From positions 1-13,293 of the forward strand of contig JALHET010000030.1 in NCBI GenBank assembly GCA_022839525.1: DNA of 13,293 nt, in the 5' to 3' direction. The DNA comes from Lentisphaerota bacterium. GTDB taxonomy: Bacteria; Verrucomicrobiota; Kiritimatiellia; RFP12; UBA1067. The position numbers were made by a program, and so were the translations under genes. This document shows, one piece after another, positions 3,101 to 6,177 of this stretch. Every line of letters begins with the position of its first letter. The stretch's first letter is position 1. Under the pieces are notes generated by a model, which worked only from the letters and a program-made list of their open reading frames with translations, was not told the DNA's origin and searched no databases.

Positions 3101-3462
3101 ACGCCGGTCTCGGCGCAGTGCTTCTGGAAAAAAACAACCCCGACTCCGCTGAGAAATTCCTGCGCCGTTCGCTCGAACTGGACTCGTCGCGCCTTTTCAC
3201 CTGGCACACGCTCGCACGCCTTCTGATCGCCACAGACCGGCTCGACGAGGCCGTACGCGCGATGGCTCCCGTCATCGCCGGCCAGCCAAACGACCCTGCC
3301 GTCCGGTTAACCCTGCTTCGGCTCAATATCAAGCAGAAAAAAATCAATGCGGCGATCGAAATCTTCGCCGGGCTCCTCGAAGAAAAAGACCGTCTACCGG
3401 AACGCTTCGCCCGGCAACTCGAACCGCTGGCCACGCAACTTTCCAACGCCTTGCCGAAATGA
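127..3462 (+). CDS. DUF2723-family multi-pass membrane protein with C-terminal TPR repeats
   Basis: A 1111-residue protein with two halves. Residues 1-435 are very hydrophobic, with roughly ten membrane segments (near 3-22, 65-95, 148-172, 177-195, 202-236, 248-268, 305-326, 331-353, 368-386, 414-431). The N-terminus ([14 protein letters not shown], then [17 protein letters not shown]) fits DUF2723, a GT-C-like family that includes bacterial protein O-mannosyltransferase candidates. A hydrophilic insert lies at about 97-146. Residues 436-1111 are soluble and end in TPR-like helical repeats, clearest at about 955-1095 ([22 protein letters not shown], and similar). The likely role is envelope glycosylation or assembly, but the acidic residues usually found after the first helix are absent. 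The start is TTG at 127; an in-frame stop lies at 91-93 and no good ribosome binding site is visible, so the true 5' end may have been lost at the junction with aspS. It appears cotranscribed with the acyltransferase 10 bp downstream. Confidence 0.8.
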
Positions 3463-3472
3463 TCCGCACCGC

Positions 3473-4369
3473 ATGAATGTGCCACACACCCCCCTCGTTT
3501 ATCTCGAATATTTAGCGCTCCGCCTACTGGGACTGCTTTACACGCTCATCCCCGCGACAAAAGCCTATGCGATCGGTGCCGCGCTGACCTCCTGCGCCTA
3601 CCCGCTTTTCCCAAAGCGCCGACGCATCGCCACCGACAATATCCTCCAGGCGCACATCACCGATGATCCGAAAGAAGCTGACCGTATTGCGCGCAAAGCC
3701 TTTGGCCACCTCGCGGGGCACCTTTGCGAAGCCCTCAAGGTGGGACAAGTCATCACCGCCGAAAACTGGCGCGAGCACATCACCTTCGACGGCCCCGAAG
3801 AATCCTGGAAACTCTTGATGGAATCGCCAGAGATACCCATCATGATTCTCTCCGGCCATCAGGGCGCATGGGAAGCAGCCGTATCCATCATCTCCTTCAC
3901 ACGCCCAATGATCGCCGTGGCCCGCAAAATGAACAACCCGTTTGTTGAGCGCTTCCTGAAAAAACACCATTTCCGCGGCGAAATCACCATCATTTCAAAA
4001 AAACAGGGGTTCACTCCCAGCGTCCTGCGGGAATGGAAGGAAAAGGGTTCCGCAATGACCCTTCTGATGGACCAGCACGCCAGCAAAAAACAAGGCGTGA
4101 CCGTGAATTTTCTGGGACGTCCCGCCTCCACCCACACTTCGCCCGCCCGTCTCCACCTCAAAACCGGCGCGCCCATTCTGGCGGGCGCCTTCATCCGGGA
4201 CGGGGTTTTCAAATACCGAATGGTCACCGGCACACCGATCCGCCACAAACCCACCGGCAATAAACAGAAAGACCTCGTCACCCTCACAACCGAAATCAAC
4301 ACCCGCATTGAGGCCGCGATCCGCCGTTTCCCCGAACAATACCTCTGGGCTCATAACCGCTGGCGGTAG
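3473..4369 (+). CDS. LpxL/HtrB-family lipid A (lysophospholipid) acyltransferase
   Basis: A 298-residue protein, the usual length for the family. These inner-membrane enzymes transfer an acyl chain from acyl-ACP to a lipid A precursor or related lysolipid. A hydrophobic stretch lies at about 8-45. The catalytic HX4(D/E) motif is SGHQGAWE, with His129 and Glu134. Further family blocks are MDQHASKKQGVTVNFLGRPA followed by THTSPARL (about 208-235) and the C-terminal LWAHNRW. The start is taken as ATG at 3473 because it gives the standard N-terminus (a hydrophobic helix soon after Met) and follows the upstream stop by 10 bp; an open frame extends back to 3347 but lies inside the upstream gene. 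The Shine-Dalgarno sequence is poor, consistent with translational coupling. The acyl chain and acceptor cannot be read from sequence. The stop codon lies 1 bp from the end of the opposing small-RNA terminator. Confidence 0.88.
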   Translation: MNVPHTPLVYLEYLALRLLGLLYTLIPATKAYAIGAALTSCAYPLFPKRRRIATDNILQAHITDDPKEADRIARKAFGHLAGHLCEALKVGQVITAENWREHITFDGPEESWKLLMESPEIPIMILSGHQGAWEAAVSIISFTRPMIAVARKMNNPFVERFLKKHHFRGEITIISKKQGFTPSVLREWKEKGSAMTLLMDQHASKKQGVTVNFLGRPASTHTSPARLHLKTGAPILAGAFIRDGVFKYRMVTGTPIRHKPTGNKQKDLVTLTTEINTRIEAAIRRFPEQYLWAHNRWR

Positions 4370-4370
4370 A

Positions 4371-4412
4371 TAAAAAAGAACGGCGGATAAAAGCTTTTGC
4401 TTCTACCCGCCG
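4371..4412 (-). terminator. Intrinsic terminator of the small RNA
   Basis: On the minus strand, positions 4412-4399 pair with 4394-4381 to give an uninterrupted 14-bp stem (12 Watson-Crick and two GU pairs; GC-rich base CGGCGG with CCGCCG) closed by an AAAA tetraloop. It is followed at once by TTCTTTTTTA (4380-4371). The T-tract is present only in the minus orientation; on the plus strand the stem is followed by a purine-rich CAGGGAGG stretch. This fixes the direction of the RNA. Confidence 0.85.
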
Positions 4413-4530
4413 CCAGGGAGGACATATATTATTAACATGTGACCGTACAGGGGAAACCTGTATCCGCGATCACGGGGGAAGCGTCGCGGCAGGCCACATC
4501 GTTCAAGAACCTGGGGGAGGTTGCTTGAAC
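4371..4530 (-). ncRNA. Putative C-rich multi-hairpin small RNA
   Basis: No protein gene occupies this stretch, but the minus strand carries a full transcription unit: promoter at 4567-4538, predicted first base G4530, and an intrinsic terminator ending at 4371. The RNA of about 160 nt would fold by eye as follows. Hairpin 1 (4530-4501) has 7+5 bp around one bulged C and loop CCCCC. Hairpin 2 (4489-4464) has 6+3 bp and loop UUCCCCC. Hairpin 3 (4462-4446) has 6 bp, UACAGG with CCUGUA, and loop UUUCC. Hairpin 4 (4440-4422) is an AU-rich 6-bp stem. A linker CCUCCCU (4421-4415) precedes the terminator stem. The C-rich loops and linker resemble anti-Shine-Dalgarno seeds that bind G-rich ribosome binding sites in some known small RNAs. 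I do not recognise an Rfam family. It does not look like 6S, SRP, tmRNA or RNase P RNA. Function is inferred. Confidence 0.72.
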
Positions 4531-4537
4531 AGGGTGT

Positions 4538-4567
4538 ATAGTATGATAAGCACCCCCCGTTTGTCAA
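4538..4567 (-). promoter_or_regulatory. Sigma70-type promoter of the small RNA
   Basis: On the minus strand a perfect -35 box TTGACA (4567-4562) is followed after 18 bp by TACTAT (4543-4538), which matches four of six -10 bases. An alternative -10, CATACT at 4545-4540, would give a 16-bp spacer. The predicted start is a G at 4530, exactly where the first long hairpin begins, which supports the placement. No other -35 in the window is as close to consensus. Confidence 0.7.
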
Positions 4568-4576
4568 CAGGCTGGA

Positions 4577-4602
4577 GGAAAAATAATCTTTTTTTCTTTT
4601 TC
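4577..4602 (-). promoter_or_regulatory. A-tract upstream of the small-RNA promoter (possible UP element)
   Basis: Read on the minus strand this is an almost pure A run with a short T run, lying about 10 to 35 bp upstream of the TTGACA box. That is roughly the position of the distal UP-element subsite contacted by the RNA polymerase alpha C-terminal domain. It stands out in a GC-rich window. UP-element function is inferred from position and composition only. Confidence 0.4.
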
Positions 4603-4759
4603 ACCAAATAAAAATAAGCCCTTTGACACTTTTCCGCCTCTTATCTTCTCTCCGGCTGCCGGTCGTTACCTGCATACTCCGGTACTCGGTTCCGCTTGCG
4701 TCTCTGCGGGATTAGCAATCGGGTAGTAGCAGGGCGCATCCCGGGTCACTGACCGTTAA
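4603..4759. other. Intergenic stretch with no recognisable gene
   Basis: No frame here codes for a recognisable protein and no tRNA or rRNA is seen. It contains small inverted repeats only: GGTCA-C-TGACC at 4744-4754, which could be an operator-sized site, and CGGGAT at 4707-4712 matched by ATCCCG at 4738-4743. A TTGACA at 4623 has no usable -10 at proper spacing. Confidence 0.5.
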
Positions 4760-4782
4760 GGGTTCGGGTTCCGGGTTGAGGG
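4760..4782 (+). repeat. GGGTT-type short repeat forming a canonical G-quadruplex motif
   Basis: Four GGG runs at 4760-4762, 4766-4768, 4773-4775 and 4780-4782 are separated by loops TTC, TTCC and TTGA (3, 4 and 4 nt). This satisfies the usual G3-N1-7 four-run quadruplex rule on the plus (non-template) strand. It can also be seen as an imperfect tandem repeat of a GGGTTC-like unit. It ends 11 bp before the candidate -35 of the downstream operon, so it could affect that promoter. Folding is predicted, not shown. Confidence 0.6.
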
Positions 4783-4793
4783 TACGCCCCTGT

Positions 4794-4822
4794 TTGCATA
4801 GAGGTGTTTTTTTGTTTATACT
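4794..4822 (+). promoter_or_regulatory. Candidate promoter of the sugar-phosphate operon
   Basis: TTGCAT (4794-4799) and TATACT (4817-4822) are separated by exactly 17 bp. The -10 matches five of six consensus bases and the -35 three of six. Transcription would start near 4829, giving a leader of about 26 nt with the ribosome binding site AAGGGGG at 4841-4847, seven bases before the ATG at 4855. Confidence 0.5.
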
Positions 4823-4854
4823 TCTTTTTATTTGAACAACAAGGGGGCTACCTC

Positions 4855-6177
4855 ATGGCTGGTATTTTCAAAGCGTATGACATCCGCGGAGTTTACGGTA
4901 AGGATTTGACCGACGAGATCGCCTATCGGATCGGCCGGGCGTTCGCAACCTTCACGGGCTGCAAAAAAGCGGTCGTGGCGCGCGACATCCGCCCGCATTC
5001 GGAGCCGCTGTTCGCGGCGCTGGCAAAGGGCATCACTGAACAGGGCTCCGACGTGATCGATCTCGGTCACGGCTCCACGCCGATGGCCTACTTCGCCAAC
5101 GGCACGCTGGACGCGGACGCGGGCGTGATGATCACCGCGTCGCACAACCCGGCCGAGTGGAACGGCTTTAAGCTCTGCCGCGCGCAGGCGGTTCCGATCA
5201 GCGGCGCGACGGGCATCTTGGACATTGAAAACATCGTGGCCGAGGAAGCCTTCGCACCCCAAGCCTCGCGGCCGGGCAAGGTGACGCCGTACGATATCCT
5301 GCCGCAGTACGCCAAGCATGTGGCGCAGTTTGCGCACCTGAAACGGCCGGTTCACCTGGCGATCGACTTCGCGAACGGCATGGGCATCTGGGAGGCGAAA
5401 ACGCTTAAAGGCATCCTCACATGGGACGGCCTCTTCGAGGAGCCGGACGGCCGCTTCCCGAACCACGAGGCGAATCCGCTAAACACCGCGACACTCAAGG
5501 ATTTGCAGGCGAAAGTCCGCGCCGGCACCTACGCATTCGGCGTGGCGTACGACGGCGACGCTGACCGCGCTGGCTTTGTCGACGAGAAGGGCGATATCAT
5601 CCCGATGGACCTGATCACCGCGCTGGTGGCGCAGGACGTGCTGACCACACGCAAAGGCGTGATCTTTTACGACCTCCGCAGTAGCCGGGTGGTGAAGGAG
5701 GTCATCGAAGCCGCAGGCGGCACGCCGATGATGAGCCGCGTGGGGCACGCCTTCATCAAGCAGCAGATGCGCGAACACGACGCGATCTTCGCGGGCGAGC
5801 TGAGCGGCCACTACTACTTCAAGGATAATTTCACGGCCGAGAGCTCGGCCATGGCAATCCTTTCGCTGGCGAATATCGTCAGCAGATCCGACCGGCCGCT
5901 TTCGGCACTGATCGCCCCGCTGCGCAAGTATTTCGCCAGCGGCGAGATCAACACGCGCGTGAGCCGCGCCCCTCAGGCGATCCTCGACGAGATCCGGGCC
6001 AAGTACGCGGACGGCCACTCGTTTGATCTGGACGGCGTGAGCGTCGAGTATGCCGACTGGTGGTTCAATGTGCGCTGCTCCAACACCGAACCGCTGGTGC
6101 GCCTGAACCTTGAGGCCAAGACCCCGGAAGTGATGGAACGTAAACGCGACGAGCTGTTGGCGGTTATCAGGAACTAG
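4855..6177 (+). CDS. Phosphomannomutase/phosphoglucomutase (alpha-D-phosphohexomutase family)
   Basis: A 440-residue cytoplasmic enzyme that interconverts hexose 1- and 6-phosphates, feeding nucleotide-sugar synthesis and central metabolism. All four family signatures are present: active-site serine loop TASHNPAEWNGFK with phospho-Ser96; metal loop DGDADR at 233-238; sugar-binding loop GELSGHYYF at 314-322; phosphate-binding loop RCSNTEPLVR at 407-416. Length is normal for bacterial PMM/PGM (about 440-460). The frame opens from 4804, but ATG 4855 is the better start: it has a strong Shine-Dalgarno AAGGGGG seven bases upstream and yields MAGIFKAYDIRG, the standard N-terminus. It is the first gene of an apparent three-gene operon; the kinase follows after 38 bp. 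Mannose versus glucose preference cannot be decided; GELSGHYYF fits the dual-specificity PMM/PGM type. Confidence 0.93.
   Translation: MAGIFKAYDIRGVYGKDLTDEIAYRIGRAFATFTGCKKAVVARDIRPHSEPLFAALAKGITEQGSDVIDLGHGSTPMAYFANGTLDADAGVMITASHNPAEWNGFKLCRAQAVPISGATGILDIENIVAEEAFAPQASRPGKVTPYDILPQYAKHVAQFAHLKRPVHLAIDFANGMGIWEAKTLKGILTWDGLFEEPDGRFPNHEANPLNTATLKDLQAKVRAGTYAFGVAYDGDADRAGFVDEKGDIIPMDLITALVAQDVLTTRKGVIFYDLRSSRVVKEVIEAAGGTPMMSRVGHAFIKQQMREHDAIFAGELSGHYYFKDNFTAESSAMAILSLANIVSRSDRPLSALIAPLRKYFASGEINTRVSRAPQAILDEIRAKYADGHSFDLDGVSVEYADWWFNVRCSNTEPLVRLNLEAKTPEVMERKRDELLAVIRN

Follow-up and report, generated by a model that had tools for sequence, protein, structure and literature searches.

A conserved small RNA displaying two invariant C-rich elements in one bacterial family of the Kiritimatiellia

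The 13,293-nucleotide stretch of Lentisphaerota bacterium DNA analysed here (GenBank assembly GCA_022839525.1, contig JALHET010000030.1; hereafter the window) carries on its minus strand, at 4371..4530, the gene of a small RNA of about 158-160 nt. Folding and alignment establish for it a conserved three-part fold consisting of a 5' hairpin, a three-way junction and a terminator. Two C-rich elements of this RNA are invariant and, as predicted by single-sequence folding, mostly unpaired: the UCCCCC loop of one junction arm and the linker UAUAUGUCCUCCCUG in front of the terminator. Judged by these comparative data it represents a genuine new family of small RNAs, of a functional kind already known, with a reasonable though unproven mode of action. 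The best explanation, to which we assign a probability of about 0.6, is Hfq-independent antisense repression by a trans-acting small RNA.

Fold and covariation

The minus strand from 4530 to 4371 folds with a minimum free energy (MFE) of -69.6 kcal/mol, compared with a mean of -40.4 and a standard deviation of 3.75 for shuffled sequences (z -7.78), and none of 200 shuffles was equally stable. The 5' hairpin is followed by the three-way junction, an unpaired linker and the terminator, with the following parts:

4371..4530, minus strand: small RNA gene, about 158-160 nt, predicted start at 4530, delimited by folding, alignment and model searches
4501..4530, minus strand: helix 1, the 30-nt 5' hairpin, loop CCCCC at 4513-4517; change on both sides in 10 of 12 pairs
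4437..4499, minus strand: three-way junction with an 8-bp closing stem; change on both sides in 8 of 8 closing pairs
4464..4489, minus strand: arm a hairpin, loop UUCCCCC at 4474-4480; change on both sides in 8 of 9 pairs
4446..4462, minus strand: arm b hairpin, loop UUUCC at 4452-4456; change on both sides in 5 of 6 pairs
4415..4436, minus strand: linker GUUAAUAAUAUAUGUCCUCCCU with the anti-Shine-Dalgarno-like CCUCCC at 4416-4421; invariant columns in the alignment
4379..4414, minus strand: rho-independent terminator stem-loop of 16 pairs; 99.2% of cells paired in the alignment
4371-4378, minus strand: terminator T-run directly after the stem-loop

The initial annotation had described a complete minus-strand unit at 4371-4530, with a promoter, a terminator and a hairpin whose first base is the predicted start, and both the signals and the fold agree with it. 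The loops CCCCC, UUCCCCC and UUUCC and a linker ending in CCUCCCU, which it had also reported, are present in the fold of the window. Its terminator with T-run was found again; the stem, given there as 14 bp, has 16 pairs in the window, the two basal ones being G-U.

That homologues would show covarying pairs was borne out as well. The main alignment has 24 rows (23 distinct) and was fitted to a covariance model, and hence leans towards structure. Standard pairs make up 95.6% of its paired cells, and 37 of 51 pairs, with 185 cells in total, have changed on both sides, which none of 500 shuffles reproduced. Its covariation score of 0.538 compares with 0.220 in shuffled alignments (0/500) and with at most 0.102 in slid versions. 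With eight rows aligned by MAFFT and not fitted to a model, the covariation score was still 0.289 against 0.164 for shuffles (0/500), and 13 pairs had changed on both sides (1/500); the number of further pair types was less striking (26/500). From the fitted alignment RNAalifold recovered the same architecture, and from an unfitted alignment of 17 rows the terminator alone. When 17 sequences were folded singly, the three-way junction was seen by eye in all except L094. Every pair of helices 1-4 varies somewhere in the alignment, whereas the two C-rich motifs are invariant.

C-rich elements

Fifteen consecutive columns of the alignment, UAUAUGUCCUCCCUG, are identical in every row and extend into the first base of the terminator. 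The UCCCCC of the arm-a loop is present in all 23 distinct rows. When these rows were folded singly, the predicted unpaired probability was 0.86-1.00 for the arm-a UCCCCC and 0.53-0.99 for the linker CCUCCC, of which one to three of the six bases are paired in the MFE structure of 7 of the 23 rows.

The emphasis of the initial annotation on four C-rich elements holds for the window copy and is weakened for the family, because two of the four are not conserved. A C-run in loop 1 is found in 14 of the 23 rows by model columns (15 if L133 is judged by eye) and one in the arm-b loop in 11; several of the rows lacking them carry A-rich loops at these places. The universal core thus comprises two elements. 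In the terminator loop UCCC was found in none of the 23 rows by model columns, and reading of the sequences revealed UUUCCCCC in the terminators of L134 and L136.

Distribution and relation to known RNA families

A covariance model from eight copies (R1) detected the RNA in 23 genomes, out of 161 searched for the order and 114 for the family. The 24-row model (R2) returned the same 23 genomes, all of one family, from 345 genomes of the class, with one full-length match per carrier; the large searches used strict filters, which diverged copies can escape. Weak second matches in some genomes correspond to the reverse strand of the terminator or, in G273, to an overlap of 21.6 bits on the opposite strand. 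In a sample of the phylum, 7 of 387 genomes matched, namely five known carriers and two terminator-like hits (G449 and G349). The latter were rejected as carriers, with the terminator end of the model alone covered, and the G449 hit was on reading a GC-rich inverted repeat. At this site (L348, 220-300; G449:C25) tandem GC-rich inverted repeats (CACCCGCCGCGGCGGGTGAAGGGGTACCCC) stand just before a segment that by eye is FTLIELL-like and prepilin-like.

The relatives of the phosphomannomutase gene next to the RNA in the window come from metagenome-assembled genomes (MAGs) mostly titled Kiritimatiellae, Kiritimatiellaeota, Lentisphaerae or Verrucomicrobia, the closest with 86% identity. Two of them (L003 and L023) bear the titles 'Akkermansia muciniphila' and 'Victivallis vadensis' among Kiritimatiellae-like phosphomannomutases, labels that may be wrong. 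A BLAST search of the RNA against 80 loci turned up a single copy, that of L007, whose neighbourhood is different; of the genomes of 50 of these loci, 16 gave matches at E <= 1.9e-6. A phosphomannomutase tree was built from the window and 37 of the 80 loci, and 17 of its 38 rows carry the RNA. On this tree, presence of the RNA requires 3 changes compared with 12.9 after shuffling, a distribution compatible with one origin and two losses. L005 lacks the RNA though its near-twin L006 has it, and part of the absences may reflect gaps in the MAGs.

The proposal that the RNA is undescribed has stood so far: Rfam 15 gave no match at gathering score in the whole window, and at the loci of 20 of the 23 relatives its only matches were a 16S and a tRNA, both away from the small RNA. 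A scan of 4330-4840 with E-values up to 10 returned a fragment of OmrA-B and HCV_5BSL1, both dismissed as chance hits far below gathering score. A survey of 104 motifs assigns Acido-Lenti-1 (RF01687) to Lentisphaerae. A literature search, restricted to titles, found no paper whose title describes a small RNA in Kiritimatiellota or Kiritimatiellae, nor such an RNA in Verrucomicrobiota. BLAST searches of plasmids and phages yielded zero matches. The exact motif TATGTCCTCCCTG was met in 5 of 146 genomes of a class sample, where G001 alone is real and the other four are without the RNA; a pattern match in IMG/VR (L347) was discarded as chance, as it is situated within an open reading frame (ORF) that by eye is phage portal-like and has no model match.

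Genomic context and Hfq

In 13 of 24 loci, among them that of the window, the downstream neighbour of the RNA is a convergent LpxL-like acyltransferase gene. In 4 of 24 a thiamine-pyrophosphokinase-like ORF follows (family judged from the sequence, without Pfam), and the remaining loci have other neighbouring genes. Because the neighbours differ between lineages, the small RNA is best classed as an independent gene and not as a leader. With its own promoter and terminator signals and its independence from neighbours it has the sequence hallmarks of trans-acting small RNAs. In L127 a 16S rRNA gene (1-349) begins on the same strand about 1.15 kb downstream of the RNA.

A search of 110 genomes of the family detected Hfq (PF17209) in none, whereas 5 of 14 control genomes were positive, including E. 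coli and B. subtilis. The host Hfq by which an Hfq-dependent small RNA would be recognised was therefore not detected in these 110 genomes.

Ribosome binding sites and predicted targets

Gene starts were defined by simple ORF rules and not by a gene finder, in samples of 400 kb out of about 6.3 Mb for G001 and 1.74 Mb out of about 2.4 Mb for G003. One rule preferred an ATG preceded by a Shine-Dalgarno (SD) site, which inflates G-rich counts; the other took the first ATG without SD preference, and the main start-region tests were repeated under it. In the control for the linker its flanks were shuffled and CCUCCC was left intact.

In a sample of G003, SD-like 4-mers, mostly AGGAG-like, precede 112 of 258 first ATGs compared with 224 of 2342 internal ones; on these counts the hosts use SD sites. 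In G003 the complements of the two C-rich elements, GGGAGG and GGGGGA, occur at 10 and 13 of 1124 first-ATG starts versus 0 and 1 in coding controls. Under the SD-preferring rule the counts were 18 and 10 of 1343 starts versus 1 and 3. These two sequences, which offer the best fit to the C-runs, are rare yet concentrated at starts. Since such starts are uncommon, the RNA is unlikely to shut off translation generically, and regulation of a limited set of genes is more plausible.

The ten best duplexes of the linker with G003 starts were equalled by 1 of 160 flank shuffles, both with SD-preferring starts (1134 genes) and with first ATGs (1124 genes), while in coding regions 63/160 and 29/160 shuffles, respectively, did as well. 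For the mean energy at G003 starts the values were 3/160 and 5/160. With SD-preferring starts of the set used for testing exported proteins, the top-5 energy of the linker was better than in 40 of 40 flank shuffles. In G001 the number of strong duplexes was matched by 9/300 shuffles under the SD-preferring rule and 24/300 under the first-ATG rule, the mean energy by 26/300 and 33/300. Target prediction around start codons, which had been proposed as a check, thus gave a divided answer: the duplex computation supports pairing in one genome (G003) through its best duplexes, and weakly in a second (G001), and no conserved target emerged.

Several results weigh against repression by pairing at starts. 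The number of strong start duplexes in G003 is unremarkable (29/160 with SD-preferring starts, 31/160 with first ATGs), and the mean energy at starts, -7.83 kcal/mol, is not better than the -7.87 kcal/mol in coding regions. In the sample of 258 G003 genes complementarity at starts likewise did not exceed coding controls. The ten best duplexes of G001 are weak (71/300 shuffles as good with SD-preferring starts, 195 genes; 21/300 with first ATGs, 178 genes), and a cruder SD test on 16 carrier loci gave an enrichment of 1.55 for GGAGG, below the 1.8 of the CCTCC control. Among the matches listed for 13 of the 23 genomes, the perfect complement of the 14-nt linker was found in the RNA itself only. 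Blastp with frames of at least 40 amino acids at 27 GGGAGGACA-N2-10-ATG sites from 9 genomes revealed no recurring orthologue. Within a set of 20 near-matches two sites do recur, one in G006, G189 and G190 (L314, L315 and L316) and one in G189 and G191 (L317 and L318), both in frames that look like shadow frames and away from likely starts. Exported proteins were not enriched beyond controls in two tests. In the first, the nominal p was 0.044 for the linker and 0.009 for its core, compared with 0.011 for a short generic anti-SD control, and the top 30 of the linker held 7 exported proteins against a mean of 6.0 and a maximum of 12 in shuffles; the second gave 12/45 and 6/15. Finally, the invariant block of 15 nt is longer than a simple anti-SD seed requires.

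Near-complements of the linker, among the matches listed, showed no recurring orthologue. Out of 20 near-matches picked from these, three lie at plausible starts, each in a single genome: a GH95 gene (L326) and, by eye, a DUF1080-like (L309) and a lipoprotein-like gene (L310). Pfam assigned nine high-ranking G003 candidates to GH95, a hydrazine-synthase-alpha-like protein, an ammonium transporter, a secretin, IMPDH and two oxidoreductase types, with two lacking a family; these nine have no theme in common.

Proposed mode of action

According to the favoured explanation a free-standing, trans-acting RNA would act without Hfq. In a restricted group of mRNAs with GGGAGGAcAUAU-type starts, its linker would pair with the G-rich SD segment together with the A/U-rich spacer and would thereby block ribosome binding. 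The arm-a loop may provide a second contact to G-runs, and loop 1, arm b or the terminator loop could add further contacts in some species. Since extended matches did not recur at orthologous start regions, the set of regulated genes probably differs from species to species. As a defined gene backed by covariation, the RNA offers a starting point for the study of RNA regulation in these little-studied, uncultured bacteria, in whose family Hfq was not detected.

Alternative explanations

The main rival is binding of a protein. Here the C-rich loop and the AUAUAUGUCCUCCC linker would form a sequence-specific protein site, either as a sponge or as the core of a ribonucleoprotein (RNP), and mRNA pairing would be incidental. 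Fifteen consecutive invariant bases on a fixed three-way-junction scaffold, one full-length copy per carrier, the failure to find a conserved mRNA target and the weak target statistics of G001 all agree with such a site. However, the motifs match G-rich SD sites, and the best linker duplexes at G003 starts beat shuffles. Furthermore, two different motifs are universal here, and known sponge RNAs usually carry many repeats of one motif. Protein binding is possible on this evidence and clearly less probable than antisense repression. More doubtful is a specific form of it in which the two invariant elements would be the recognition site of an RNA-binding protein or chaperone, as part of a novel clade-specific regulatory RNP under a dedicated single-site operator, in a lineage without detected Hfq.

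It is improbable that the RNA is directed at the ribosome, with its C-rich parts acting on or mimicking the 3' end of 16S rRNA as an anti-SD mimic or helix 45 antisense. The linker resembles the anti-SD tail, and arm b with its 3' flank (CAGGUUUCCCCUGUACGGUCAC, in the window and close relatives) resembles by eye the complement of 16S helix 45. However, by eye this stretch is absent in L122, L123, L128 and L129-L137, so the likeness is not a feature of the family.

That the RNA is a leader or attenuator acting in cis on its neighbour is still less likely. The thiamine-pyrophosphokinase-like ORF begins 17-39 nt past the RNA in L123, L127, L130 and L132, and the linker of the L007/L123 copy can pair with the GGAGGAGG site of this gene. 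However, no complementary site precedes the start in L130 and L132, contexts vary by lineage, and the reading is largely refuted because the downstream gene is convergent in the 13 loci mentioned above.

Next to nothing speaks for a non-functional sequence, since a chance intergenic fold is refuted by the covariation, and a small coding gene through AUGUCCUCCCUGGCG, for which there is an AUG inside the linker, disagrees with invariant third codon positions right after this AUG and a window frame without stop before the T-run.

Comparison with known small RNAs

The alphaproteobacterial alpha-r14 (NfeR1) consists of three hairpins, each with CCUCCUCCC in an unpaired region (PMC10746234). It is trans-acting and resembles the small RNA by design, with ultraconserved unpaired anti-SD motifs on divergent stems and redundant C-rich elements (PMC10746234). 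The combination of an invariant anti-SD motif with divergent stems is thus found here as well. Unlike alpha-r14, the RNA of this different phylum has one hairpin, a three-way junction and a linker in place of three hairpins, and its motifs are UCCCCC and UGUCCUCCCUG; by reading, CCUCCUCCC is absent from the window RNA, and Rfam gave no relation to alpha-r14 at gathering score.

LhrC of Listeria binds SD regions redundantly, Hfq being dispensable (PMC4132741). The C-rich anti-SD design and a family without detected Hfq are points of likeness. LhrC is multicopy and has two stem-loops without three-way junction (PMC4132741), whereas here each carrier has a single full-length copy. A further difference is the C-run of the terminator loop, which by reading occurs here in only 2 of 23 rows, those of L134 and L136.

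RepG of Helicobacter pylori has a C/U-rich loop and acts in an organism without Hfq, and its architecture and size differ from those of the small RNA described here. Unlike RepG, the latter carries two invariant elements on a junction scaffold. The target of RepG is a G-repeat in an mRNA leader (PMC8295292). By design, alpha-r14 (NfeR1) and LhrC appear closest, and the defining architecture of neither family was found. Invariant exposed C-rich motifs fitting ribosome binding sites are repeated in another phylum on a different scaffold. If the proposed mode of action is true, this would point to a solution that has evolved more than once where Hfq is absent or not needed.

Promoter and neighbouring genes

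The remaining features around the small RNA gene are:

4562..4567, minus strand: -35 hexamer TTGACA; TTGACA, TTGACT or TTGACG in 24 of 24 aligned copies
4538..4543, minus strand: -10 hexamer TACTAT, spacing 18 from the -35 hexamer
3347-4369, plus strand: LpxL-like acyltransferase gene, left neighbour of the small RNA
4855-6177, plus strand: phosphomannomutase gene (Pfam), right neighbour

In the window CATACT at spacing 16 from TTGACA is an alternative -10. Three promoter-like sites were found around the small RNA where 0.6 were expected, two of them being the TACTAT and CATACT alternatives. When the 65 nt upstream of each of the 24 copies were compared with the consensus, the best -35/-10 pair agreed at 8-12 of 12 bases in every copy, a count taken without a shuffled control. 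In all but one copy this sigma-70-type pair lies 5-9 nt ahead of the model's first base (23 of 24); in the exception, L133, the model misplaced the 5' hairpin.

An imperfect palindrome, GGTGCATA...TATGCACC (GGTGC...CACC), overlaps the -10 hexamer in many relatives, as seen by eye, and may be a dedicated operator. At 4538-4560 of the window and in homologous promoters it is nearly unique to the small-RNA promoter in 13 genomes: a promoter-derived pattern with 3 mismatches allowed hit this promoter in 10 of the 13 and two other sites, and the reversed pattern gave 1 match. No regulator can be named for it because the regulon search gave just these two other sites. Between the small RNA and the phosphomannomutase gene, about 200 nt of non-coding plus-strand sequence (4630-4840) show modest folding with a z of -1.8.
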